This document shows, in pieces, positions 16,200-28,595 of a DNA stretch of 51,252 bases. This stretch comes from Pseudomonadota bacterium. GTDB taxonomy: Bacteria > Pseudomonadota > Alphaproteobacteria > GCA-2731375. Positions within the stretch are counted from its first letter, which is position 1. Every line of letters starts with the position of its first letter. The position numbers and the translations under genes were made by a program. Under the pieces are notes generated by a model. The model was given only the letters and a program-made list of their open reading frames with translations, was not told the DNA's origin and ran no database searches. The DNA lies in NCBI GenBank assembly GCA_027623205.1, contig JAQBYC010000021.1:1-51252 (forward strand), in the 5' to 3' direction.

Positions 16200-17723
16200 A
16201 GTCGGCTGTTAAAAAGCTTCTGAAGCCTTGATTGGCTGGGCTTTGCGGCTGATTTGAAGCTTTTCAAATTGCAAGAAAACTGCGTTTTGACGGTGATTTT
16301 CTTGCGATTTGGGATTCATTTTTTGGTCGATTCGTGGCATTTTGGAGCATTGAATCTGGGGGTTTTGATGCGACCGAAACAGCAGGAAAGAGCCACTCAC
16401 GATGACCTGTTCAGGTCCCGGCTCGATCAAATCATCAACCTGAAGCACGAACTCGTGGTCCTGGCGGACAAGATCGACTGGGCCTGGCTGGACGCGCAAT
16501 TGGCGGACTACTTTTCCGACCAGGGCCGGCCGGCGGAACCGGTACGCTTCATGCTTGGCATGTTCATTCTGAAGCATACCTACGCCCTGTCCGACGAGCA
16601 GGTCTGGGACCGCTGGGTGCATGATCCTTACTTCCAGTACTTCACCGGCGAAGAGTTCTTTCAACACGATTTGCCCCACGAGCGGTCCGGCATGAGCCAT
16701 TGGCGCAACCGCATCGGCGAGACCCTGGACATTCTGTTGCAGGAAAGCCTGCGTGTCGCTCATGACACGGGTGCCCTGAAGAAGAGCGACCTGGCCCGCG
16801 TCACCGTGGATACCACGGTGCAGCCGAAAAACATTACCCATCCGACCGACGCCAAGCTTCTTTTGGTGGCGATCCAACAGCTTGGCAAGCTGGCTAAGGA
16901 ACATGGCGTGCCCCTGCGCCAGTCCTATGGCCGCGTGGCCAAGACGGCGTCGATGATGGCGGGGCGTTATGCCCACGCCAAGCAGTTCAAGCGCATGAAC
17001 CGGCAAATCAAGTTCCTGCGCACCCGCCTGGGCCGGATCATCCGCGACATTGGACGCAAGATCGAGGGGGACGACGCGCTCGGAGCGGTCTTCGCGGTGC
17101 CCTTGATCAAGGCCCGTCAGATCCGGCGCCAGAAGCAGCGTCAGAGAGGCTGGAAGCTTTATTCCTGGCACGCACCCGAGACAGAATGCATCGGCAAGGG
17201 CAAGGCCGCGAAGCCCTATGAGTTCGGCGTCAAGGTCTCCCTGACCACCACCAACAAACGCTGCATGGGCGGTCAATTTATTCTGCATGCCAAGGCTCTG
17301 CCCGGAAATCCCTATGACGGCCATACCTTGAAAGAGGTGCTCGCGGAGACCAAGGATCTGACCGGCCGCGAGATCGAAAGGGTCTATGTGGACAAAGGTT
17401 ATCGCGGCCACCATGCGCCCAAGCCCCTTCGGGTCTTCCGCTCGGGCCAGAAGCGCGGTGTGCACGGCCAGATCAAACGGGAGCTCCGGCGCCGCTCGGC
17501 CATCGAAGCCGTAATCGGGCATTGCAAAACCGATGGCCATCTCAACCGCAACTACCTGAAAGGCCGACAAGGCGACAACATCAACGCCGTCATGAGCGCC
17601 GTAGGCTACAACTTCCGCCTCATCCTCAAGTGGTTGAGGTATCTCTTGCGCAAAATTATCGCCGCAATATGGGCCGCGATAGCGCCTGCCTCAATGCTCA
17701 AAATGGCTTCTTAACAGCCGACT
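16200..17723 (+). mobile_element. Complete IS5-family insertion sequence
   Basis: The element of about 1524 bp is bounded by inverted repeats AGTCGGCTGTTAA (left, 16200-16212) and TTAACAGCCGACT (right, 17711-17723). The match continues imperfectly inward (AAAGC against GAAGC). It is flanked by a CTCT duplication (16196-16199 and 17724-17727); a six-base reading TCTCTA is also possible. One transposase gene fills it. The intact ends, duplication and open frame suggest recent insertion. Confidence 0.93.
16368..17714 (+). CDS. IS5-family DDE transposase
   Basis: The 448-residue transposase has the IS5-type N-terminal domain (RPAEPVRFMLGMFILKHTYALSDEQV) and a DDE catalytic domain. The first Asp is in VTVDTTVQPKNI, the second is in VYVDKGYRGHH, and the Glu is in SAIEAVIGHCKTDG followed by LNRNYLKG, as expected for the Y-R-E-K block. 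The frame runs upstream to 16254, but ATG 16368 follows a purine-rich CTGGGGG and matches the MRPK start common in this group. The C-terminal tail is Ala/Trp-rich and ends just inside the right inverted repeat. There is no sign of a programmed frameshift. A 453-codon minus-strand frame covering the same region is a shadow. Confidence 0.95.
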   Translation: MRPKQQERATHDDLFRSRLDQIINLKHELVVLADKIDWAWLDAQLADYFSDQGRPAEPVRFMLGMFILKHTYALSDEQVWDRWVHDPYFQYFTGEEFFQHDLPHERSGMSHWRNRIGETLDILLQESLRVAHDTGALKKSDLARVTVDTTVQPKNITHPTDAKLLLVAIQQLGKLAKEHGVPLRQSYGRVAKTASMMAGRYAHAKQFKRMNRQIKFLRTRLGRIIRDIGRKIEGDDALGAVFAVPLIKARQIRRQKQRQRGWKLYSWHAPETECIGKGKAAKPYEFGVKVSLTTTNKRCMGGQFILHAKALPGNPYDGHTLKEVLAETKDLTGREIERVYVDKGYRGHHAPKPLRVFRSGQKRGVHGQIKRELRRRSAIEAVIGHCKTDGHLNRNYLKGRQGDNINAVMSAVGYNFRLILKWLRYLLRKIIAAIWAAIAPASMLKMAS

Positions 17724-17857: not shown

Positions 17858-18958
17858 TTAGTCGATTTTGGCGGCATAGTCTCGGATCACGTCCAGATCC
17901 GGTTCCAGGCCCAGGCCGGGTCCGGTGGGGACGGTGATGTTGCCGTCCTTGGCGAGAATGGCGTCGCCGTAAAGACTGGCTTCCAGGGTTTTGTAGTAGA
18001 AGGTTTCCGCCAGGCATTCATCGGGCATGGTCGATAGCAAGTGCAGGGTGGCCAGCAGGCCGGGCGCGAAATAGGGCGCGTGGGGCATCACCGTGGTGCC
18101 ATGAATTTCGGCCAGGGTGTTGATCTTGCGGAACTCGGTGATGCCGCCGACCTTGGTCACGCTGGGCTGGACATAGGTGACGGCGTCAGCCTCCATCATT
18201 TTTTGAAACTCAAAAGCCGTGCAGGCGTTTTCCCCCGCCGCCAGCGGGATATCAACCTCCAGTCCCAGACGGGCCAGGCTGTCGAAGTCCTCCGGCGGAA
18301 AAATCGGTTCCTCCAGCCAATGCAGATCATAGGGCTTGAAGGCCAGGGCTTTTTCCTTGGCCTGCCAGGGTGTCCAGGGACAATTGGTGTCCACCATCAG
18401 GGGGATGCCGTCGCCCATGGCGATCCGCGCGGCGCGGACCTGCGGTTCGGCGGTTTCGTGCAGCTTGATGGATTTGAAACCTTCACCCAGGGCCCTTTGA
18501 CAGTGTTCCGCCACCAGATCGGGATCGTTGTATTTAAACAACGAGGCATAGGCCGGAATCTCCGTCCGCCGCGCCCCGCCCATCAGGCGCGATAGCGGCA
18601 GACCCGCCGCCTTGCCGGCGATATCCCAAAGCGCGATATCAACACCGGAAATGGCGAACATGGTCACGCCATAGCGGCCCCAGATATGGTTCTCCTGCTG
18701 TAGGTCATGGGAGATACCGGCGATATTGGCGGCATCCCGGCCAATCAGGCTGGGCCCGATCATGTAATCCACCGCGGCCTTGGTCGCCCGCGCGGAGCCA
18801 TAGCCGAAGCCATCGCCCCAACCGACCAGGCCGCTTTCCGTTTCGATCCGGATCATCACATAATCCAGGGTGGTCCAATCCATATCACCCCATTTATTGG
18901 CTCCGCCCGTGGTATAGGGGAGTTGTATGAGAAAGCTTTCAACCTTGCCGATTTTCAT
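17858..18958 (-). CDS. Mandelate racemase/muconate lactonizing enzyme-family protein (enolase superfamily), paralog A
   Basis: The 366-residue protein has the capping domain (residues 1-125) with VGWGDGFGYGSARATKAAV, and a TIM barrel. The barrel carries the catalytic-base region GFKSIKLHE, metal ligands in MVDTNCPW, WLEEPIFPPED and AGENACTA, and a later VMPHAPYFAPG His segment. The base motif reads KxH rather than the KxK common in the MLE subgroup, as in some sugar-acid dehydratases. Likely action: abstraction of the proton alpha to a carboxylate, in dehydration or epimerisation of a sugar acid or related compound. It lies 19 bp downstream of paralog B on the same strand. Confidence 0.85.
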   Translation of the reverse strand: MKIGKVESFLIQLPYTTGGANKWGDMDWTTLDYVMIRIETESGLVGWGDGFGYGSARATKAAVDYMIGPSLIGRDAANIAGISHDLQQENHIWGRYGVTMFAISGVDIALWDIAGKAAGLPLSRLMGGARRTEIPAYASLFKYNDPDLVAEHCQRALGEGFKSIKLHETAEPQVRAARIAMGDGIPLMVDTNCPWTPWQAKEKALAFKPYDLHWLEEPIFPPEDFDSLARLGLEVDIPLAAGENACTAFEFQKMMEADAVTYVQPSVTKVGGITEFRKINTLAEIHGTTVMPHAPYFAPGLLATLHLLSTMPDECLAETFYYKTLEASLYGDAILAKDGNITVPTGPGLGLEPDLDVIRDYAAKID

Positions 18959-18977
18959 GGTCTGACTCCGTGTTTCG

Positions 18978-20063
18978 TCACGTCACACTATAGCGCCCGA
19001 TGGCGTCTGGATTGAAGGTAAAGCCCAGGCCCGGCCGGTCCGGCACAAGCAGATCGCCGTCCACCAGTTCCATGGCCTCGTTATACAAAGGTCCGAACCA
19101 GGGCATCATCTCGGAATAGCTGATATTGCTCAAGGCGCCGCAGAGCTGCAAACTTTGTTCTGTATAGAGGTGGGGCGAGACCGGAATATCGAAGGCATCG
19201 GCCATATGCGCCACCTTGATAAATTCAGTGATGCCGCCCACCCGTTCCAGATCGGGCATCAGCACGTCGGCCGATTGGCGCTCCAGCATATCGCGAAAGC
19301 CATAGCGGGCGTATTCGGTCTCGCCGCTGGCAACGGGGGTATCGATTTCGGCCGCAACCCTGGCCGAACCCGCCAGATCATAGGCTTGCACCGGTTCCTC
19401 GAACCAGACCAGGTTATAGGGCTCCAACGCCCGGCCCAGGCGGATGGCATGGTTTACGGTGAAGCCTTGATTGGCATCGGCCATCAGGTCAACATCCGGG
19501 CCGATGGCTTCGCGAACAGCCGCCACCCGCTCGATATCTTCCGCTACGGTGGGCTTGCCCAGACGCATTTTCATGGCACGGTAGCCCTGGGCCAGGAAAT
19601 CCTTGGCCTCGGCCTGCAATTCTTCGATGGAAAGCGAGACCCACAGGCCGCCTGAATGATAGGCTCGGACGCGATCGCGGCTTTGCCCCAACAGGCGGCA
19701 GACCGATAGACCATGGGCCTTGCCCACCAGATCCCACAGCGCCATGTCGATCGCGCTCAGCCCAAACAATGTGATGCCCTTGTGTCCGAAGAAATTGATG
19801 TCGCCCCACATCGCGTCCCATAGGCCAGCATGTTCATGCGGGTCCCGGCCCACCACCACATGCGCCAGACTGTGGATCATCGCATCCAGCACCGCCAGCC
19901 GTCCCGTGTCCATGCACCAGACCAGAGCCTCGCCAACCAGGCCCTCGTCCGTATCAACCTGCAACAGTACACAGGCGACGGATTCGACCCGGTGAATGGC
20001 GGTGCGGATCGGCTTTGCAAATGGGATCCGCACATGCTGTGTGCGCAACTGGGTAATTTTCAT
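18978..20063 (-). CDS. Mandelate racemase/muconate lactonizing enzyme-family protein (enolase superfamily), paralog B
   Basis: The 361-residue protein carries the canonical KxR/K block as YRAMKMRLGK. Metal ligands are in LMADANQGF, WFEEPVQAYD and ASGETEYARYG, and the general acid region is in VSPHLYTEQS. This is clearly a different specificity from paralog A, although the two share the fold. Members with this pattern include galactonate, mandelate and related acid-sugar enzymes. The ATG overlaps the stop of the rhomboid gene by 4 bp, so the three minus-strand genes form one unit. No transporter or dedicated regulator accompanies them. Confidence 0.85.
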   Translation of the reverse strand: MKITQLRTQHVRIPFAKPIRTAIHRVESVACVLLQVDTDEGLVGEALVWCMDTGRLAVLDAMIHSLAHVVVGRDPHEHAGLWDAMWGDINFFGHKGITLFGLSAIDMALWDLVGKAHGLSVCRLLGQSRDRVRAYHSGGLWVSLSIEELQAEAKDFLAQGYRAMKMRLGKPTVAEDIERVAAVREAIGPDVDLMADANQGFTVNHAIRLGRALEPYNLVWFEEPVQAYDLAGSARVAAEIDTPVASGETEYARYGFRDMLERQSADVLMPDLERVGGITEFIKVAHMADAFDIPVSPHLYTEQSLQLCGALSNISYSEMMPWFGPLYNEAMELVDGDLLVPDRPGLGFTFNPDAIGRYSVT

Positions 20064-20716
20064 GAATTTCCCCTTCCGAATCGCCGCCCGTGTCTATTCA
20101 GGCCATCCAGCAGCGGGAATAAAACAAACCCGGCCAGAAAGCCGCCAATATGAGCCTCCCAGGCGATTGAACGCACCTCGCCCGTGCCCGGAACACCTGT
20201 GTAACCCAAGACGACATTGCTGCCGATAAAGATGGCGATGACCAGCAAGGCGCGGCGCGTGGTCAAACGCAGGACAGCCCCAAACAGGCCCGAAATGGCG
20301 CCCGAGGCGCCAACCATTATGGTCTGCTCGTGACTGTAGGAAAACAACGCCAGGCTGGCCCCGGCGCCGCACAAGGCGCAGGCGAAATAAAGCCCCAGAA
20401 ACCGGCCCCGACCCAACCGCCGTTCCATGGGCGTGCCGAATGCCAGCAAAAAAGCCATGTTGAGGGCCAAATGCAGCAGGTCCGCATGGAGAAAAGCGTA
20501 GGTGAGGGGCGAGGCCAGCAGGATCAAGGTATAGGGTGCGCCCTCGCCCATGACCGCGGCCAGAAACCATGGCGGCGAGAAACCGCCCAGGGTGCCGGCG
20601 ATCATCGACCACTGTTCGGGCAGTACCAGGCGGACCGCGTGAACGCCGGCGTTTATGGCAATCAGGGCCAGCACCACGGGCGTGGCGTTGAAGACGGGCT
20701 GAGAGGTTTGTGACAA
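20060..20716 (-). CDS. Rhomboid-family intramembrane serine protease
   Basis: The 218-residue protein has six hydrophobic segments and the rhomboid catalytic dyad: Ser in VGASGAISGLFGA and His in EAHIGGFLAGFVLF. The HADLLHLALNMAFLLAFG segment holds the conserved HxxxN. Rhomboids cleave membrane proteins within the bilayer. The start is TTG at 20714-20716, because the in-frame region upstream closes at a stop codon without ATG or GTG. It is the first gene of an operon with two enolase-superfamily enzymes, an unusual pairing that may be only transcriptional. Confidence 0.85.
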   Translation of the reverse strand: MSQTSQPVFNATPVVLALIAINAGVHAVRLVLPEQWSMIAGTLGGFSPPWFLAAVMGEGAPYTLILLASPLTYAFLHADLLHLALNMAFLLAFGTPMERRLGRGRFLGLYFACALCGAGASLALFSYSHEQTIMVGASGAISGLFGAVLRLTTRRALLVIAIFIGSNVVLGYTGVPGTGEVRSIAWEAHIGGFLAGFVLFPLLDGLNRHGRRFGRGNS

Positions 20717-20850: not shown

Positions 20851-21264
20851 ATGAGTGAGATCAATTATCAGGCTATTTTACCCGAGGGCTGGAACCGGGC
20901 GCGGGGGTTTTCCTATGGGGTTGCCGCCGTCGGCAGCCGGGTCCTGCGCATCGCCGGGCAGATCGCGGCCACCAACGGCAATCAGCCCGTGGACCCTGGT
21001 CTTGACTTCGGCGGGCAGTGGGAACGTGCCATGGGCAATCTGGTAACCATTCTGCGGGCCGCGGGCGGCGAACCCGCCAATCTGGTCATGCTGCGGGCCT
21101 TCGTGACGGATATTGATGCTTTTAACGCGGCGGGCCCCGCCGTTGGCGCGGCCTGGGGGACGCACCTGGGCAAGCATTTTCCGGCCATGACCCTGGTTCA
21201 GGTCAGCCGCCTGATCGACCCCAACGCCATGGTCGAGATCGAGGGCGAGGCAGTGTTAGCCTAA
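20851..21264 (+). CDS. RidA (YjgF/YER057c/UK114) family protein
   Basis: The 137-residue protein shows the RidA pattern: RGFSYGVAAVGSRVLRIAGQIA, then DFGGQWERAMGNLVTILRAAGG, LVMLRAFVTDIDAF and MTLVQVSRLIDPNAMVEIEGEAV. RidA proteins hydrolyse reactive enamine/imine intermediates released by PLP enzymes. The Arg usually found near residue 105 in true RidA is in the VSRLIDP block. The gene has a good GAGAGGAAC site upstream and is divergent from the rhomboid operon. An inverted repeat follows the stop codon. Confidence 0.85.
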   Translation: MSEINYQAILPEGWNRARGFSYGVAAVGSRVLRIAGQIAATNGNQPVDPGLDFGGQWERAMGNLVTILRAAGGEPANLVMLRAFVTDIDAFNAAGPAVGAAWGTHLGKHFPAMTLVQVSRLIDPNAMVEIEGEAVLA

Positions 21265-21358: not shown

Positions 21359-22081
21359 ATGGCGAAGCTTGATCGCGATACCTTCGAGCGGCGGACAGGC
21401 ATTCGCTCCGCCGACTATGATCAGCTCAAGAAAATCACGCTTTTTGCCGGCATGACGGATGAAACCATTATGCGCCTGCTGGTGGATTCCACCGCGCGGC
21501 GCTATCCCCGTGGCACCTCGCTATTCATGCAGGGCGAACAGGCGGATAGATTTTTTGTCGTTCTGGAGGGTTGGGTCAAGGGCTTTCGCCAGGCCCCGGA
21601 CGGTCATGAAAGCGTGATCGCTGTGTTCGGTCCCGGCGAAACCTTTGCTGAAGCGGCCATGTTCGTTTCCGGAAATTTTCCCATCAGTACGGAAATCGCG
21701 GCAGATGCGCGGCTGCTGGTGATACCGCGTAACGGCCTTTTGAAACAGTTGCGCGAGGATCCCGATATAGCCCTGAAGATGCTGGCATCGATGTCCCGGC
21801 GACTGCGCGGGTTCGTCCAGCAAGTGGAACAATTGACGGTTAAATCGGCGACCCAGCGCCTGGCGTCCTTCTTGGAAAAACTGATCGACGTTGAAGAAGG
21901 TTCGGACGAGTTCCAATTGCCTTTGGACAAAATGCTGATTGCCGGGCGCCTGGGTATGCAGCCGGAAACCTTGTCCCGCGCGTTATCCAAGCTACGTTCC
22001 ATAGGTGTGGCAACCGAAGGGCATCGGGTCATCGTCAAGGATGTCGCGGCCCTGCACGCCATCAACGACGACGATGAATAG
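21359..22081 (+). CDS. Crp/Fnr-family transcriptional regulator (DNR-like)
   Basis: The 240-residue protein has a cyclic-nucleotide-binding-like sensor domain (about 25-145, with YPRGTSLFMQGEQADRFFVVLEGWVKG and FGPGETFAEAAMF) and a C-terminal HTH. The recognition helix region is LGMQPETLSRALSKLRSIG. The N-terminal cysteine cluster of FNR is absent, and PGETFAEAAMF differs from the CRP cAMP pocket. This fits the DNR or haem/NO-sensing subgroup that often controls anaerobic respiration. It lies 103 bp upstream of the molybdoenzyme operon on the same strand and is the obvious candidate regulator of it. Confidence 0.85.
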   Translation: MAKLDRDTFERRTGIRSADYDQLKKITLFAGMTDETIMRLLVDSTARRYPRGTSLFMQGEQADRFFVVLEGWVKGFRQAPDGHESVIAVFGPGETFAEAAMFVSGNFPISTEIAADARLLVIPRNGLLKQLREDPDIALKMLASMSRRLRGFVQQVEQLTVKSATQRLASFLEKLIDVEEGSDEFQLPLDKMLIAGRLGMQPETLSRALSKLRSIGVATEGHRVIVKDVAALHAINDDDE

Positions 22082-22184
22082 CGCCGTGATGAAGCTAATC
22101 GACCGGGACGGGCGCCGATATGCTACCTAACAATGACCTAACAATGCGTGATGGCCACTCGAACAGCAGACCAGGGGATTGGCG

Positions 22185-24905
22185 ATGAGCACCATAAAAA
22201 AAGTTCCGCAATATTGTTATCAATGTGTCGCCGGGCCGGATTTCCTCACCGTCAAGGTCGAGGACGGCGTGGCGACGGAGATAGAGCCGAACTTCGCCCT
22301 GGCGGATGTCCATCCCGGCGGCGGCAAGTCCTGCGTCAAGGCCTATGGTCTGGTGCAAAAGACCTATAATCCAAACCGCCTGCTGACGCCCATGAAGCGG
22401 ACCAATCCGAAAAAGGGTCGTGACGAAGATCCCGGTTTCGTTCGCATTTCGTGGGACGAGGCCTTGGGAATGGTGGGTGGAAAACTCAAGGAAATTCAGG
22501 CCAAGGGTTTGCACGACCCATTGGGCTATGCCCGTGTCGCGGCCTCATTTGGCGGCGGCGGCACACCGACCTATTATATGGGGACCTTTCCCGCTTTTCT
22601 GTCCGCTTGGGGCGCGGTGGATTTCAGCTTTGGTTCGGGGCAGGGCGTCAAGTGCACGCATTCCGAACATTTGTACGGTGAATTATGGCATCGCGGCTTT
22701 ACGGTTGCCGCCGATACGCCGACGACGAATTATATCCTGTCTTTCGGCGGCAATCCGGAGGCCTCCGCGGGGGTGATGGGTATTACACGCCATGCGGATG
22801 CCCGGGCACGGGGCGCCAAGCGGGTGCAGATTGAGCCGCATCTTTCCGTTACTGGAGCCTGTTCCGCGGAATGGGTGCCAATCCGACCCAAGACGGATCC
22901 CGCATTCATGTACGGCCTGATCCATGCCATGTTGCATGAAATGCCGCGCGAGCGGCTTGATATCGAATTTCTCACCAACCACACCGGCTCCCCCTATCTG
23001 GTGGCGCCGAACGGCTATTTCCTGCGCGATCTGGTCAGCCACAAGCCCCTGATGTGGGATTTGAAGCGGGGCGCCGCCGTGCCCTTCGATACCCCGGACA
23101 TCGAACCGGCCTTGGAGGGCAGCTTTACCGCCTCGGGCATCGAGATCGGCGCGGACGACGAAGAATGGCAGCATGAAGAGATTGAGGTGGATACCGCCTT
23201 TAGCCTTCTGGTCAAACAGATGGCCGAATACACCCCGGAATGGGCCGAGGAAATTTGCCAGGTACCGGATGGCTGTATCCGCCGCATCGCCGATGAGTTC
23301 GTCAGCCACGCCCAGGTCGGCGATACCATCGAGATCGATGGCGAAATATTGCCCCTGCGTCCCGTGGCGGTGATCCTGGGCAAGACCGTCAACAATGGCT
23401 GGGGCGGTTACGAATGTTGCTGGGGGCGTACCCTGCTGGCCTGTCTGGTCGGCGCCCTGGAGGTGCCCGGCGGCACCCTGGGCACCACGGTGCGCCTGAA
23501 CCGGCCCGCCACCACGCGTCAGGCCAGCGTCATCGGCGGCCCGGATGGCTTCATGCAATACCCCATGAACGCCACCGACAAGGAAAACTGGCAGGAGGCG
23601 CCAACCGCCCGCAATGCCCATTCAACCCTGGTGCCCCTGTCGGCGAATTCGCCGTGGAGCCAGGCCTTGGGTCCGACCCATCTGGCCTGGATGTTCCGCA
23701 AGGAAAGTCCGGAAAACTGGCCGGCGGTCTCGGCCCCTGATCTGTGGTTCGTCTATCGCACAAATCCCGCGATTTCGTTTTGGGATACCAAGGCGATAAC
23801 GGAGCGGATCGCGGAATTTCCCTTCATCGTCTCGTTCTGCTACATCCCCGACGAGACCAATTATATGGCCGATGTCCTATTGCCCGAATGCACGGATTTC
23901 GAGAGCACCCAACTGATCCGGGTCGGTGGCACCAAGTTCATCGAAAGCTTTTGGGATCATGAAGGCGTGGCCCTGCGCCAACCGGCCATCAAGCCCTTGG
24001 GCGAGACGCGGGATTTCACCGATATCGCCACTGAACTGGCCGCGCGCGCCGGCATCCTGGATAAATACAACAATGCCATCAATCGTGGCGCCGCGGGCGT
24101 GCCCTTGCGCGGCGGCAACTATGACTTCAGCCTGGATATTGAGCAGAGCCATGGCGCGGAGCAAATTTGGGACGCCATGTGCCGGGCTGCTTCCGCCGAA
24201 CTGACCGATGGGGCCGAAACCGATGGTCTGGATTGGTACAAGGAGCACGGTATCCGCACGCGGCCGATCTCGCGCCTGATCTGGTATCTGTTCCCGGAAT
24301 TGCGTAAAAAGGGCCTGCGCTTTGAAATGCCTTATCAGGAACAGCTTTACCGGGTCGGCAAACAGCTTGGCAATCGTTTGCACGAAAAGGGCATCGAGTG
24401 GTGGAATGAACAACTTAAGGAGTATGAACCCTTGCCACCCTGGAAGGATTTTCCGGGGATATGGGAACAGGCCACGGTGAATTCCGGCGGTGCTTTGGAG
24501 GATTATCCTTTCTGGCTGCTGACCTCCCGCAGCATGCAACTCGCCTGGGGCAGCAACAGTTCGATCCAGATGATCGACGAGGTGGCGAAGAACATGCACG
24601 GCCACCGGGCTGTCGTGATGAATACCGGCAGGGCGGCGGAAATGGGGATCGCGGACGGCGATCTGGTAGAGATCAAATCGACCTTGCGCAGCACCAAGGG
24701 CCGGGTCGCGCTGAAACAGGGCATCCGGCCCGACACAATTTTGATCCAGGGCCAGTTTGACCATTGGGTTACGCCATTTTCAAAGGATAATCCAGCGCCC
24801 AGCATGAATACCGTCGTACCCATGTCTTTGGCGTTGACCGACTCCACGGGTTCTTCCGCCGATATCGTCCGGGTCGCGGTACACCGGCTGGAGGGCAAGG
24901 CGTGA
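22185..24905 (+). CDS. Molybdopterin-dependent oxidoreductase, catalytic subunit (DMSO reductase family)
   Basis: The 906-residue protein has the family order: N-terminal Fe-S domain (residues 8-60), MGD-binding domains (FGGNPEASAGVMGITRHAD; VPIRPKTDPAFMYGLIHAM) and the C-terminal MGD domain from about 780 (WLLTSRSMQLAWGSNSS; GIADGDLVEIKS). The Fe-S motif is Cys11, Cys14, then Pro18 where a third Cys is usual, and Cys50. So only three of the four typical ligands are present. No Tat signal is seen, so it should act in the cytoplasm. ATG 22185 is chosen over TTG 22179 because of AGGGGA 7 bp upstream. Size and partners fit phenylacetyl-CoA:acceptor oxidoreductase (PadB-like); that function is a hypothesis. 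Confidence 0.85.
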   Translation: MSTIKKVPQYCYQCVAGPDFLTVKVEDGVATEIEPNFALADVHPGGGKSCVKAYGLVQKTYNPNRLLTPMKRTNPKKGRDEDPGFVRISWDEALGMVGGKLKEIQAKGLHDPLGYARVAASFGGGGTPTYYMGTFPAFLSAWGAVDFSFGSGQGVKCTHSEHLYGELWHRGFTVAADTPTTNYILSFGGNPEASAGVMGITRHADARARGAKRVQIEPHLSVTGACSAEWVPIRPKTDPAFMYGLIHAMLHEMPRERLDIEFLTNHTGSPYLVAPNGYFLRDLVSHKPLMWDLKRGAAVPFDTPDIEPALEGSFTASGIEIGADDEEWQHEEIEVDTAFSLLVKQMAEYTPEWAEEICQVPDGCIRRIADEFVSHAQVGDTIEIDGEILPLRPVAVILGKTVNNGWGGYECCWGRTLLACLVGALEVPGGTLGTTVRLNRPATTRQASVIGGPDGFMQYPMNATDKENWQEAPTARNAHSTLVPLSANSPWSQALGPTHLAWMFRKESPENWPAVSAPDLWFVYRTNPAISFWDTKAITERIAEFPFIVSFCYIPDETNYMADVLLPECTDFESTQLIRVGGTKFIESFWDHEGVALRQPAIKPLGETRDFTDIATELAARAGILDKYNNAINRGAAGVPLRGGNYDFSLDIEQSHGAEQIWDAMCRAASAELTDGAETDGLDWYKEHGIRTRPISRLIWYLFPELRKKGLRFEMPYQEQLYRVGKQLGNRLHEKGIEWWNEQLKEYEPLPPWKDFPGIWEQATVNSGGALEDYPFWLLTSRSMQLAWGSNSSIQMIDEVAKNMHGHRAVVMNTGRAAEMGIADGDLVEIKSTLRSTKGRVALKQGIRPDTILIQGQFDHWVTPFSKDNPAPSMNTVVPMSLALTDSTGSSADIVRVAVHRLEGKA

Positions 24906-25552
24906 CCCGCTATGTGATGATTGCCGATCTGCGCCGCTGCGTCGGTTGCCAGACCTGCACGGCGGCCTGCAAGCATGCCAACGCGACCCCACCGGGGGTG
25001 CAATGGCGTCAGGTGCTGGATATGGAAACCGGCACCTACCCTCAGGTGCAACGCACGTTCGTGCCGGTCGGCTGCATGCATTGCGCCGATCCGCCCTGCG
25101 AATCCGTCTGCCCCTCGACGGCGACCAAGATCCGCGACGATGGCATTGTCGAAATAGATTATGATCTGTGCATTGGCTGTGGCTACTGCGCCGTGGCCTG
25201 CCCCTACCAGGCCCGTCATATTGTGCACAAACGGGACCTGGCCTATGACAAACAGGCCATGGCGCACGAAGAGGCGCGCTTTGACGAGGGGCGCATGTCC
25301 GTGGCCATGAAGTGCAATTTCTGCCAGAGCCGCATCGATACCGCCAAACAGACCGGGCAGACCCCCGGCGTCGATCCGGAGGTGACGCCGGCGTGCGTCA
25401 ATTCCTGCATTGCCGACGCCCTGCATTTCGGTGATCGCGATGATCCCAACAGCAATGTCTCCGTCCTGTTGGCGGAGAACCAAACGTTTCGCATGCACGA
25501 GGAACTGGGGACGGATCCCGGCTTCTATTACATCTGGGACAAAAACGAATGA
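24902..25552 (+). CDS. Four-cluster ferredoxin-type electron-transfer subunit of the molybdoenzyme (DmsB/PadC-like)
   Basis: The 216-residue protein contains the cysteine sets for four [4Fe-4S] clusters: CVGCQTCTAAC near the start, CMHCADPPCESVC, CIGCGYCAVAC, and CNFCQSR with two later Cys in ACVNSC. This is the usual arrangement of DmsB/NrfC/PsrB subunits passing electrons between the molybdenum subunit and a membrane anchor. The start is GTG at 24902, overlapping the stop of the catalytic-subunit gene (GTGA). The stop overlaps the next gene's ATG, so the three subunits are translationally coupled. Confidence 0.92.
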   Translation: MTRYVMIADLRRCVGCQTCTAACKHANATPPGVQWRQVLDMETGTYPQVQRTFVPVGCMHCADPPCESVCPSTATKIRDDGIVEIDYDLCIGCGYCAVACPYQARHIVHKRDLAYDKQAMAHEEARFDEGRMSVAMKCNFCQSRIDTAKQTGQTPGVDPEVTPACVNSCIADALHFGDRDDPNSNVSVLLAENQTFRMHEELGTDPGFYYIWDKNE

Positions 25553-26457
25553 GCCGTATTGAACCCTGGCATCAGCTCAATTGGGATTGGCGCGCCGCCG
25601 GCAATTTTATAGGCGGCGGCAGCGGCACAGGCTTGCTGATACTGGCAGCGGTGGCCGCAGGCCAGGGGACCGCCTATTGGCCCCTCGGCTTTTTCGGCGC
25701 CATTCTGGTAGGCATAGGCCTCGTCTGCGTCTGGTTGGAGATCGGCCGACCCTGGCGCGCCCTGCATGTCTTCTATCATCCGCAAACCTCGTGGATGACC
25801 CGTGAAGCCTTCGTTTCCGCCTTGTTGCTGCCAGTCGCACTATTGGCGGCCGCGGCTGCGGCCCCCTTTATTCATTTGCCGGCCATCGCTGGTGGTGCGA
25901 TCTGGCTGGCGGCGCTGCTGGCCGCGCTCTACCTCTATTGTCAGGCCCGCATCCTGCATGGCTCGAAAGGTATTCCAGCCTGGCGGCATCCTAGCCTTAT
26001 GCCGGTTATCATCCTGACGGGATTAACAGAAGGGGCAGGCTTTTTGGTGCTGGCGATTGCCTTGATCGGGGGCTTTTCTGTTTGGCCTTTGATACTGCTA
26101 TTCATCTTGTTGTTGGGACGCTGGATGTCATGGCGCCGCTATCTGGCGAACCTGACGGAAACCGGCGCACCGAACAAGGCTCTGGCTGTCTTGAACGGCG
26201 CCACACCGATGATCAATATTCTCGGACATTATGGGCCAGCCATCTTGATGTTATTGGCCCTGGTTACCGGTTCACTAGGCCCTATATTTTTTGCCCTGGC
26301 GGGATTGGCCGCTATTGCCGGCGGCTGGCAGATGAAATTCGTTGTCGTCGCCCGGGCTGCCTTTAATCAAGGCTTTGCCCTGCCCCTGACCCCGGTGCGC
26401 GGGACCGGAAAGCCCGGCCCGGGTGATAAACCTGGTTGGAACAAGAGCGGGCAGTAA
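25549..26457 (+). CDS. NrfD/DmsC-like membrane anchor subunit (PadD-like)
   Basis: The 302-residue protein has eight hydrophobic segments and the DmsC/NrfD-type features: the N-terminal RAAGNFIGGGSGTGLLIL, an early LEIGRPWRALHVFYHPQTSWM loop, and a final VVARAAFNQGFALP. It anchors the ferredoxin subunit and exchanges electrons with quinone. The opening, with WHQLNWDW, resembles the anchor of phenylacetyl-CoA:acceptor oxidoreductases as I recall it. It overlaps the preceding gene by 4 bp and is followed after 2 bp by the DUF2249 gene. Confidence 0.85.
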   Translation: MSRIEPWHQLNWDWRAAGNFIGGGSGTGLLILAAVAAGQGTAYWPLGFFGAILVGIGLVCVWLEIGRPWRALHVFYHPQTSWMTREAFVSALLLPVALLAAAAAAPFIHLPAIAGGAIWLAALLAALYLYCQARILHGSKGIPAWRHPSLMPVIILTGLTEGAGFLVLAIALIGGFSVWPLILLFILLLGRWMSWRRYLANLTETGAPNKALAVLNGATPMINILGHYGPAILMLLALVTGSLGPIFFALAGLAAIAGGWQMKFVVVARAAFNQGFALPLTPVRGTGKPGPGDKPGWNKSGQ

Positions 26458-26459
26458 CT

Positions 26460-26717
26460 ATGACGGTGCAGCCTAGCGCGCCGCGTTGGCAGGCCGACGA
26501 CGGCTACCATATCGATGTGCGTGGCTTGCCGGCGCCACAGCCCATGCTGCAAATTCTGGCTCTGCTGGAGACCATCCCGGCGGGCGCGGTGATCGTGCAT
26601 CACGATCGCGAGCCGATTTATCTGTATCCGGAATTGACGGAACGGGGCTGGAACCACGAATTATTGCCGGGCGCGGGCGATGAAGTTCGCCTTCGCCTGT
26701 GGCGGAACGATGTTTAG
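26460..26717 (+). CDS. DUF2249-domain protein (TusA-like fold)
   Basis: The 85-residue protein is a single DUF2249 domain: HIDVRGLPAPQPMLQILALLE, then HHDREPIYLYPELTERGW and a C-terminal VRLRLWR strand. The family resembles TusA/SirA and is frequently found beside nitrogen-oxide and hemerythrin genes; the biochemical role is unknown. ATG 26460 is chosen rather than the upstream frame start at 26436, which lies in the NrfD-like gene. The position, 2 bp after the anchor gene, indicates it is part of the operon. Confidence 0.8.
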   Translation: MTVQPSAPRWQADDGYHIDVRGLPAPQPMLQILALLETIPAGAVIVHHDREPIYLYPELTERGWNHELLPGAGDEVRLRLWRNDV

Positions 26718-26729
26718 GCCGATCGTACT

Positions 26730-28016
26730 ATGGCCCTAGGTGCGACCTCATTCCTAGGGAGCGCGGCGGAACGTTTGTTGCCCCTGTCGGTGCCTTTTAG
26801 GTTTTTCGGTGCGGCCGTGTTGTTTCATGTGGCGGCGTGGGCGACCTTGGTGGCCGGCGCCGGCGAGCTGGCGACGTTCAGGGGCGGTGGTGGAGCGGTT
26901 TTGGCTGCTATCCATCTGATGACCCTGGGCGTGTTCGTCATGACCGCCGTGGGCGCCAGTCTGCAACTGCTGCCTGTCGCCACCCTGCAAGGCTTCGCCG
27001 CGCCCGCTAGGATCAATGCTATTTGGTGGCTGCTCAACGCTGGCACCATATGCCTGGCCATGGGCATGTACTTGAGGTGGCACGAGATAATGGCGGTCGG
27101 GGGCGCGTTGCTGACGTTCGCCATCGGCCTCTATCTGTGGCTGTTGGTGGGTAATTTGCGGCGTGGCGGTGCCATGATGGCGGTGGTGGCCCATGGCTGG
27201 CTGGCGGCCGGCGCCTTGATCGGATTGCTGGTGCTGGGCCTGGTCCTGATTATCAATACGGAGCATGGCTTTCTGGCGAACAGTCAGCGCGCCGCGGTGA
27301 GCCATATGTTGGTAGCCGCCTATGGCTTCATGGGTTTGTTGGCCATGGGTTTCAGTTATGTCCTTGTGCCCATGTTCGCCCTGGCGCCGATGCCTTCGGA
27401 CAAATGGGCGCTGGCGGCCATGTTTTGCGCTTGTACCGGGCTGGCACTGGGGTTTGCGGGTACCTGGTTTGCCCAGGATGCCTGGGCTGCCCTGGGCGGA
27501 GGTATCGGCCTGATCGGCGCGGCGATCTATCTCAGCCTGATGGCGATCATCTTAAAGCAAAGAATGCGCAGAAAATTGGGTCCGGCCTTTGATTTGATGC
27601 GGTTGTCATGGGCATTGTTGCCTTTGAGTCTGTTAGCTGGGACCGCCTGGGCTCTGAATTTACTGCCGGACTGGGGTGCGGTGATATTCGGCTTATGGTT
27701 ATTCGGCTGGATACTGGGCTTTCTATTGGCGATTTTGCAAAGGATCGTACCGTTTTTGGCCTCCATGCATGCGGCCTTCGCCGTGAAACGCCGCCCCCCC
27801 ACCGTGACTGCGCTGACCGCCCGGGGGCCGCTTGCCGCACATCTTTATTGTCATTGTGCGGCGTTGGTATCGTTGTCTGCCGGGATTATCTGGCCGATAC
27901 CCTTCCTCGTTACCCTGGGCGCCGTGGCGGGATTGCTGGGCGCGGCTTCTTTTGCCTGGTTTTTTCTGTTGGCGGTGCTGAGGTATCGCACTGCCCTGAG
28001 GGCGCCGTCCGCTTGA
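26730..28016 (+). CDS. NnrS-like polytopic membrane protein
   Basis: The 428-residue protein has about twelve hydrophobic segments. Conserved-looking His residues occur in AAIHLMTLGVFVMTAVGASLQ, AVSHMLVAAYGF and HEIMAVGG, consistent with a haem/copper-binding membrane protein of the NnrS or cytochrome oxidase subunit I-related type. NnrS protects against nitrosative stress during anaerobic metabolism. The neighbours (DUF2249 before, hemerythrin after) often accompany such proteins. Family assignment is by pattern only; it may be a distinct NnrS-related group. Confidence 0.6.
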   Translation: MALGATSFLGSAAERLLPLSVPFRFFGAAVLFHVAAWATLVAGAGELATFRGGGGAVLAAIHLMTLGVFVMTAVGASLQLLPVATLQGFAAPARINAIWWLLNAGTICLAMGMYLRWHEIMAVGGALLTFAIGLYLWLLVGNLRRGGAMMAVVAHGWLAAGALIGLLVLGLVLIINTEHGFLANSQRAAVSHMLVAAYGFMGLLAMGFSYVLVPMFALAPMPSDKWALAAMFCACTGLALGFAGTWFAQDAWAALGGGIGLIGAAIYLSLMAIILKQRMRRKLGPAFDLMRLSWALLPLSLLAGTAWALNLLPDWGAVIFGLWLFGWILGFLLAILQRIVPFLASMHAAFAVKRRPPTVTALTARGPLAAHLYCHCAALVSLSAGIIWPIPFLVTLGAVAGLLGAASFAWFFLLAVLRYRTALRAPSA

Positions 28017-28094
28017 CCGCAATCAATGAAGCAATCCGCGTGGTGACACTATACTTTGCCTGAAGTTCATTGTTGTTGATGTTGGGACCGACGC

Positions 28095-28595
28095 ATGCAC
28101 TACGAAAGCCGAATTGCCCAGGTGTTGCACGACGAACATCTGCGGGTCATTGACTTGATGAATCGTCTGGAAGGCTTCACCACGGGCCGGAAGGCGAAAC
28201 TCGCGCCTGCCAAAGACGACGCGGCGGCCGGCGCCCTGCTGGCCGATCTGAAGGCCGAATTGCAAGGCGTGTCAGGCCATCATTTCAACTTCGAGGAAGA
28301 GAATTTGTTCCCCGCATTGATAGCCGTGGGCGATGTTGCGATCCCGCACATGTTGCGTCAGGAACATGATCTGCTGCGTAATCTTTCGGAAGTCATGCTG
28401 CCCATGGTCCAGGAGGCCTGCAGCAATGGTTTCACGGCGGAAGCGTGGGCGGCGTTCCGCGATCTGGCGTTGGAATTGGTGGAACGGCAGATCACCCATA
28501 TCCAGAAAGAGGAAATGGGCCTGTTGCCAGCCTTGAGCGGCGTGTTCGAAGAACAGCAGGATGGCGAACTGGCGCTTCTATTCGCCGAAGCATAG
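28095..28595 (+). CDS. Hemerythrin-like HHE cation-binding domain protein
   Basis: The 166-residue four-helix protein has His/Glu iron-ligand candidates in each helix: VLHDEHLRVIDLM, GHHFNFEEENLFP, PHMLRQEHDLLRNL and RQITHIQKEEMGLLPAL. HHE proteins bind a di-iron centre and act in oxygen or nitric-oxide sensing, storage or repair of Fe-S damage. It ends the regulator-molybdoenzyme-DUF2249-NnrS-like group, 78 bp after the membrane protein. The ribosome-binding site is weak (GGGAC). No FNR-type box is seen in the gap, so it may be read through. Confidence 0.85.
   Translation: MHYESRIAQVLHDEHLRVIDLMNRLEGFTTGRKAKLAPAKDDAAAGALLADLKAELQGVSGHHFNFEEENLFPALIAVGDVAIPHMLRQEHDLLRNLSEVMLPMVQEACSNGFTAEAWAAFRDLALELVERQITHIQKEEMGLLPALSGVFEEQQDGELALLFAEA

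Follow-up and report, generated by a model that had tools for sequence, protein, structure and literature searches.

A PadBCD-type enzyme operon ending in a portable module with a probable NO or O2 role in an alphaproteobacterial genus

In the window, the whole 51,252-nucleotide stretch of alphaproteobacterial DNA analysed here, the genes for a PadBCD-type molybdoenzyme, a kind with which bacteria degrade phenylacetate-like compounds anaerobically, are followed by a separable three-gene module. On balance (a probability of roughly 0.6) this cluster is best explained as a system for arylacetyl-CoA oxidation to quinone in a denitrifier, accompanied by an NO/O2 guard module common to pad and bcr operons. 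Family membership, synteny, the placing of the module at one operon or another, its co-occurrence with bcr and a conserved regulatory box are direct findings; we infer the substrate, the electron route and the chemistry of the guard. A cytoplasm-facing, membrane-anchored enzyme would oxidise phenylacetyl-CoA, or else a closely similar arylacetyl-CoA, yielding the arylglyoxylate and handing electrons from the catalytic subunit to the ferredoxin subunit, on to the anchor and finally to quinone. The arylglyoxylate would be expected to reach benzoyl-CoA, to be dearomatised by BcrCBAD, encoded elsewhere in the genome of this marine lineage with cd1 nitrite reductase. Since the ligase PaaK is missing, phenylacetyl-CoA is proposed to arise from phenylpyruvate by an indolepyruvate-type ferredoxin oxidoreductase. 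The DUF2249, oxidase-fold and hemerythrin proteins of the module most likely sense or remove NO or O2 harmful to the Fe-S enzymes of the pathway.

All genes named by the first-pass annotation were found in their places and order, on the plus strand, although a conserved RidA-family gene just upstream (20851..21264; PF01042, 3e-16), 80–96% identical in the same place in relatives, had been missed. It is followed by genes for a Cys-less Crp/Fnr-family regulator (21359..22081; PF00027, cNMP_binding, and PF13545, HTH_Crp_2), the 906-aa PadB-type molybdopterin catalytic subunit (22185..24905, with an alternative TTG start at 22179; PF00384/PF01568), the PadC-type 4Fe-4S ferredoxin subunit (24902..25552; Fer4 families; syntenic in nearly all homologous loci), and a DmsC/NrfD-like, PadD-type membrane anchor, presumably the quinone site (25549..26457; likewise syntenic, and matched weakly by PF04976 at 23.0 bits against a cut-off of 22.3). 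The module comprises genes for a DUF2249 protein (26460..26717; PF10006, 2.9e-13), a membrane protein modelled with the fold of heme-copper oxidase subunit I (26730..28016), and a hemerythrin-like diiron protein (28095..28595; PF01814, 3.9e-14). The catalytic subunit and ferredoxin genes overlap by 4 bp, as do those for ferredoxin and anchor; 2 bp separate the anchor from DUF2249, 12 bp DUF2249 from the membrane protein, and 78 bp the membrane protein from hemerythrin. The entire order from RidA to hemerythrin recurs at 54–97% identity in four congeners (G001, G002, G005, G006), is likewise kept in a member of the next genus (G012, small subunits merged in the gene call), and is thus not due to chance; in another congener (G010) it is spread over two contigs, and further congeners show it on partial contigs. 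Genes in the relatives' loci were called with a codon-scored ORF caller suited to GC-rich DNA. The source genome (G000) is 5.0 Mb in size and 96.9% complete. The named members of its genus, an alphaproteobacterial one, are MAGs under the label Rhodospirillaceae or Alphaproteobacteria.

Upstream of RidA, on the minus strand, lie two mandelate racemase/enolase-family genes and a rhomboid protease gene (17858-20716), kept there in congeners. A phenylglyoxylate-related role for the mandelate-racemase-like genes was considered and rejected, and they are given no role, since their best profiles are of sugar-acid dehydratases, all under cut-off. A nearby transposase (16254-17714; DUF772 and DDE_Tnp_1) has no family member in the same position in the congeners' loci. 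RidA-family genes also recur in aromatic-degradation loci of other lineages (L177:2171-2566, L127:3086-3484, L129:2759-3160).

The enzyme core (22185-26457) is well supported by sequence and tree position as belonging to the PadBCD-type family, a lead already suggested by the first-pass annotation. A genome-wide scan gave 80 named loci; outside the window's family the catalytic subunit is matched best in betaproteobacteria (70–72% identity), and nine loci of this group carry padE, padF, padH or padI homologues downstream, as do Azoarcus taiwanensis (L112, 66%) and a Rhodospirillales MAG (L095, 65%). Representatives of these genes exceeded the NCBIfam equivalog cut-offs in three of four cases (PadF, PadH, PadI), PadE scoring 273 against 300 bits. 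A PaaK ligase (671 bits, cut-off 646) adjoins the same pad genes, and relatives 65–72% identical often have PaaK beside padBCD. In a tree of 92 catalytic subunits, built by a quick method and with one long row flagged, the window copy falls in a 27-row group (SH-aLRT 95) together with nine of the padEFGHI-linked loci, and the remaining two such loci lie in the sister group. This placement, which the first-pass annotation had proposed as a check, argues against its idea of a single uncharacterised respiratory system, as does the separability of the tail. The PadB clade is recognised here by padEFGHI linkage; the 80 loci include neither the Thauera aromatica nor the Aromatoleum aromaticum PadB by name, and a search of the plasmid collection for a named PadB likewise found nothing near, the best-covering match being 28% identical. 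Because the window copy nests among padEFGHI-linked loci, the simplest reading is that arylacetyl-CoA oxidation was ancestral around its branch.

Like PadBCD of Thauera aromatica and Aromatoleum, the enzyme has three subunits in the same order, with the Fe-S and membrane subunit genes directly downstream of the catalytic subunit gene, a membrane anchor and no Tat signal visible at the catalytic N-terminus, and its relatives carry padEFGHI and PaaK. It differs in that the window itself lacks both, none being over cut-off in the genus, and in its surroundings, with RidA and Crp/Fnr genes before it and the DUF2249–oxidase-fold–hemerythrin genes behind. The closest solved relatives by sequence are ArrA, PsrA/PhsA and other membrane-complex molybdopterin catalytic subunits, but these matches are partial and distant. 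In addition, the third cysteine of the N-terminal FS0 motif CxxCxxxC (residues 13-21, window 22215-22241) is replaced by an invariant Pro20-Asp21 in every PadB-clade row with data, whereas the distant relatives retain it. An Asp-ligated or a three-Cys cluster is possible there. Cys159, invariant across the clade, is a candidate Mo ligand. A second PadB-like copy, 57–65% identical and with ferredoxin and anchor apparently fused, occurs in the source genome (G000:C131 and C47; L051, L052) and at L044-L050. In eight genomes it is divergent from a conserved set of genes for a thiolase, an OB-fold protein, a UbiD decarboxylase and a TPP enzyme, most often accompanied by an AMP ligase. This locus is read as a route, so far uncharacterised, for aromatics or acyl-CoAs.

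Phenylacetyl-CoA or a close arylacetyl-CoA is the likely substrate in the window's genus, as suggested by the company the enzyme keeps. BcrC exceeds its curated cut-off in 9/11 congeners, the source genome included, and in G003 subunit profiles also identified the adjacent bcrBAD-ferredoxin genes; profile searches found no BcrC in G007 and G008, though both keep PadBCD. More widely, PadB homologues occur in 11 of 276 sampled alphaproteobacterial genera, nine of which also have BcrC. The phenylacetate-CoA ligase that the first-pass annotation had thought worth seeking was looked for and not found: none of the 11 congeners has a PaaK (TIGR02155) over the curated cut-off (best 240 against 646 bits), nor is PadI (NF045766) over cut-off in any of them, so that the steps before and after PadBCD must have replacements. 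Indolepyruvate-type ferredoxin oxidoreductases are found in every congener genome, and in G000, G002, G003 and G006 one of the paralogues shares a contig with bcr; in the source genome a family III CoA-transferase lies between it and bcr. Since Aromatoleum IorAB converts phenylpyruvate directly to phenylacetyl-CoA (PMC9765128), ligase-free supply by an arylpyruvate:ferredoxin oxidoreductase encoded near bcr is plausible by analogy. For the step from phenylglyoxylate to benzoyl-CoA only a candidate can be named, the oxidoreductase on the bcr side. The supposed link to denitrification was borne out by cd1 nitrite reductase (nirS) in the source genome and by a nor-adjacent copy of two module genes, described below. 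At five bcr loci (L171, L172, L187, L188, L213) a recurrent set comprises a divergent 2-oxoacid oxidoreductase, a rubrerythrin, a GNAT protein and an Rrf2-family regulator, the set being another possible link to oxidative or nitrosative stress.

The first-pass annotation had noted that phenylacetyl-CoA oxidation itself does not explain the last three genes, and their distribution agrees, for in the genus the module ends the pad operon in six genomes (G000, G001, G002, G005, G006, G010) and directly follows the bcrCBAD-ferredoxin operon in three others (G003, G004, G009). It is absent from G007 and G008, the two congeners without bcrC. Across the 15 genomes of the order, the membrane-protein gene is present in ten, namely 9/9 congeners with bcrC, 0/2 without, and G012; another member of the order (G013) has bcrC and lacks the module membrane protein. 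Elsewhere the triad follows PadBCD-PaaK in G197 (L175) and a Sneathiellales MAG (L078). In G378 (L177) it comes after HcrCAB (4-hydroxybenzoyl-CoA reductase), which adjoins bcr, and in Zeimonas arvi (L135; HcrA 1197 bits) after PadBCD-PaaK-HcrCAB; in four betaproteobacterial loci PadBCD is followed by hemerythrin and a membrane protein more distantly related to that of the module. In G312 (L184) the DUF2249 and membrane-protein genes and two Crp/Fnr genes lie beside norC, norB, norQ, norD and a COX3-type gene, which is a direct NO link of the module. Among the 276 alphaproteobacterial genera, which are not fully independent, BcrC is present in 6/10 with the membrane protein versus 5/266 without (Fisher p 1.6e-7). 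The tie to bcr is not exclusive, given the four of ten genera without BcrC and the case of G013. The tail is a portable module separable from PadBCD; its position and co-occurrence support a role in dealing with NO or O2 as an accessory of pathways for anaerobic aromatic degradation. As in relatives it closes either the pad or the bcr operon, it probably guards the oxygen-free pathway rather than forming one new respiratory chain with the enzyme.

The name 'NnrS-like' given to the membrane protein did not hold, as six members tested matched no Pfam family and the model (AF2, pLDDT 88, 12 sequences) instead has a predicted 12-helix heme-copper oxidase subunit I fold, its top fold matches being CcoN and NorB/cNOR (Z 34-35, rmsd about 3 over 380-396 residues). 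At the sequence level, its profile found no match among PDB sequences and hhalign to a NorB sequence was not significant. Only H62, H192 and H347 (helices 2, 6 and 10) are conserved histidines in the alignment, with none in helix 7. Since helix 7 usually supplies two ligands of CuB in the heme-copper oxidase superfamily, the protein would probably hold just one low-spin heme and no binuclear centre. It does share with NnrS a polytopic architecture, conserved histidines and a neighbourhood with Crp/Fnr genes, joined in one genome by nor genes, although its closest folds are CcoN and NorB. NnrS itself is a heme-copper-containing membrane protein of NO regulons (PMC1274295). The hemerythrin retains the HHE diiron ligands, H15, H63, E67, E68, H91, H135 and E139 being invariant in the family alignment. 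DUF2249 proteins are known from nitrogen-oxide settings, where DrpA of Thermus acts in nitrate respiration (PMC6282519) and haloarchaeal denitrification induces DUF2249 genes (PMC11218638); an association of the family with hemerythrin and heme-copper oxidase families is reported (PMC11218638, PMC6282519). Unlike those systems (DrpAB and the haloarchaeal genes), the module in the window is tied to pad, bcr and hcr aromatic operons.

The hemerythrin gene appears to stand somewhat apart in its regulation. A perfect FNR/FixK-type box, TTGACCGCAATCAA (28013..28026, no strand assigned), lies 82 bp before its start, and a perfect TTGA-N6-TCAA site is found upstream of the pad-linked hemerythrin in 7/7 congeners having one (the window and six others), at 79-90 bp in the five measured; in four loci of other lineages (L135, L174, L088, L102) a perfect site lies 69-100 bp upstream of hemerythrin. 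Such a box is expected by chance in about 1.4% of 200-bp stretches. Triads linked to bcr are without such a perfect site before hemerythrin, and in G009, where the triad is at bcr, a hemerythrin gene with its own site remains behind padD. On this sequence pattern the pad-linked hemerythrin probably forms, at least in part, its own transcription unit, so that the seven-gene set is not one simple regulatory unit. Independent regulation of the later genes, which the first-pass annotation had named as counting against its single system, thus applies to hemerythrin. Scans of the cluster for sigma-70 promoters and terminators gave shuffle-level results, and no perfect FNR-type box was found upstream of padB or the regulator in the window, or between bcrC and the divergent oxidoreductase in five genomes. 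The alphaproteobacterial NnrR consensus is of the TTGCG type (PMC1274295), so that FNR/FixK-type control fits the box better. The regulator gene, kept upstream of padB in congeners except G008, was initially called DNR-like; its Crp/Fnr domains stand, but no specific subfamily profile was over cut-off (NCBIfam's closest, FtrB, is below), and with no cysteine it is not an Fe-S FNR. It is one candidate for binding the hemerythrin box.

Other explanations draw on the same data. The tail could be a general denitrification or NO-stress cassette, near pad and bcr only as both are anaerobic loci and with no functional tie to aromatics; the DUF2249 precedents (PMC11218638, PMC6282519), the norCBQD neighbourhood of L184 and the genera that have the membrane protein and lack BcrC all fit this, yet it is doubtful given that in several lineages the module repeatedly closes a pad, bcr or hcr operon, and that its presence tracks bcrC within the genus. 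A change of substrate is unlikely too, the enzyme having then left phenylacetyl-CoA for a genus-specific acyl-CoA or arylacetyl-CoA, with PadEFGHI and PaaK lost as a result. Its 70–72% identity to padEFGHI-linked homologues and position inside their clade, the prevalence of bcrC among congeners and the known ligase-free supply via IorAB weigh against such a shift, while the want of PaaK and PadI throughout the genus, the two congeners keeping PadBCD without bcrC, and the conserved mandelate-racemase/enolase-family and RidA neighbours weigh for it.

Far less credible is one new respiratory system embracing all the genes, with the oxidase-fold protein a terminal NO reductase fed by the molybdoenzyme. 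The heme-copper oxidase/NO reductase fold, the common gene direction and the tight spacing behind the anchor gene would suit it, but no conserved histidine occupies the helix expected to hold the CuB ligands, the module occurs without adjoining PadBCD (L171, L177, L184), and PadBCD also occurs without the module. Under the preferred reading, arylacetyl-CoA oxidation with a guard module, NO and O2, and protection and signalling, are equally compatible with the data.

A narrower proposal, held tentatively and at somewhat under even odds, is that the triad is a dedicated NO/O2 guard or an NO-gated switch for anaerobic aromatic degradation in denitrifiers, taking the last place in the pad or the bcr operon. 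The Fe-S centres of benzoyl-CoA reductase and of the enzymes feeding it are sensitive to oxygen, yet denitrifiers operate these enzymes while producing NO. If true, the triad would serve phenylacetyl-CoA oxidation as well as benzoyl-CoA reduction, as an accessory not described before; among the papers searched, none combines NnrS with benzoyl-CoA. A small module that tracks bcrC and is attached to the pad or the bcr operon offers named genes for a direct test, and would give a concrete setting to three poorly understood families, the DUF2249 proteins, the NnrS-like membrane proteins and the bacterial hemerythrins.
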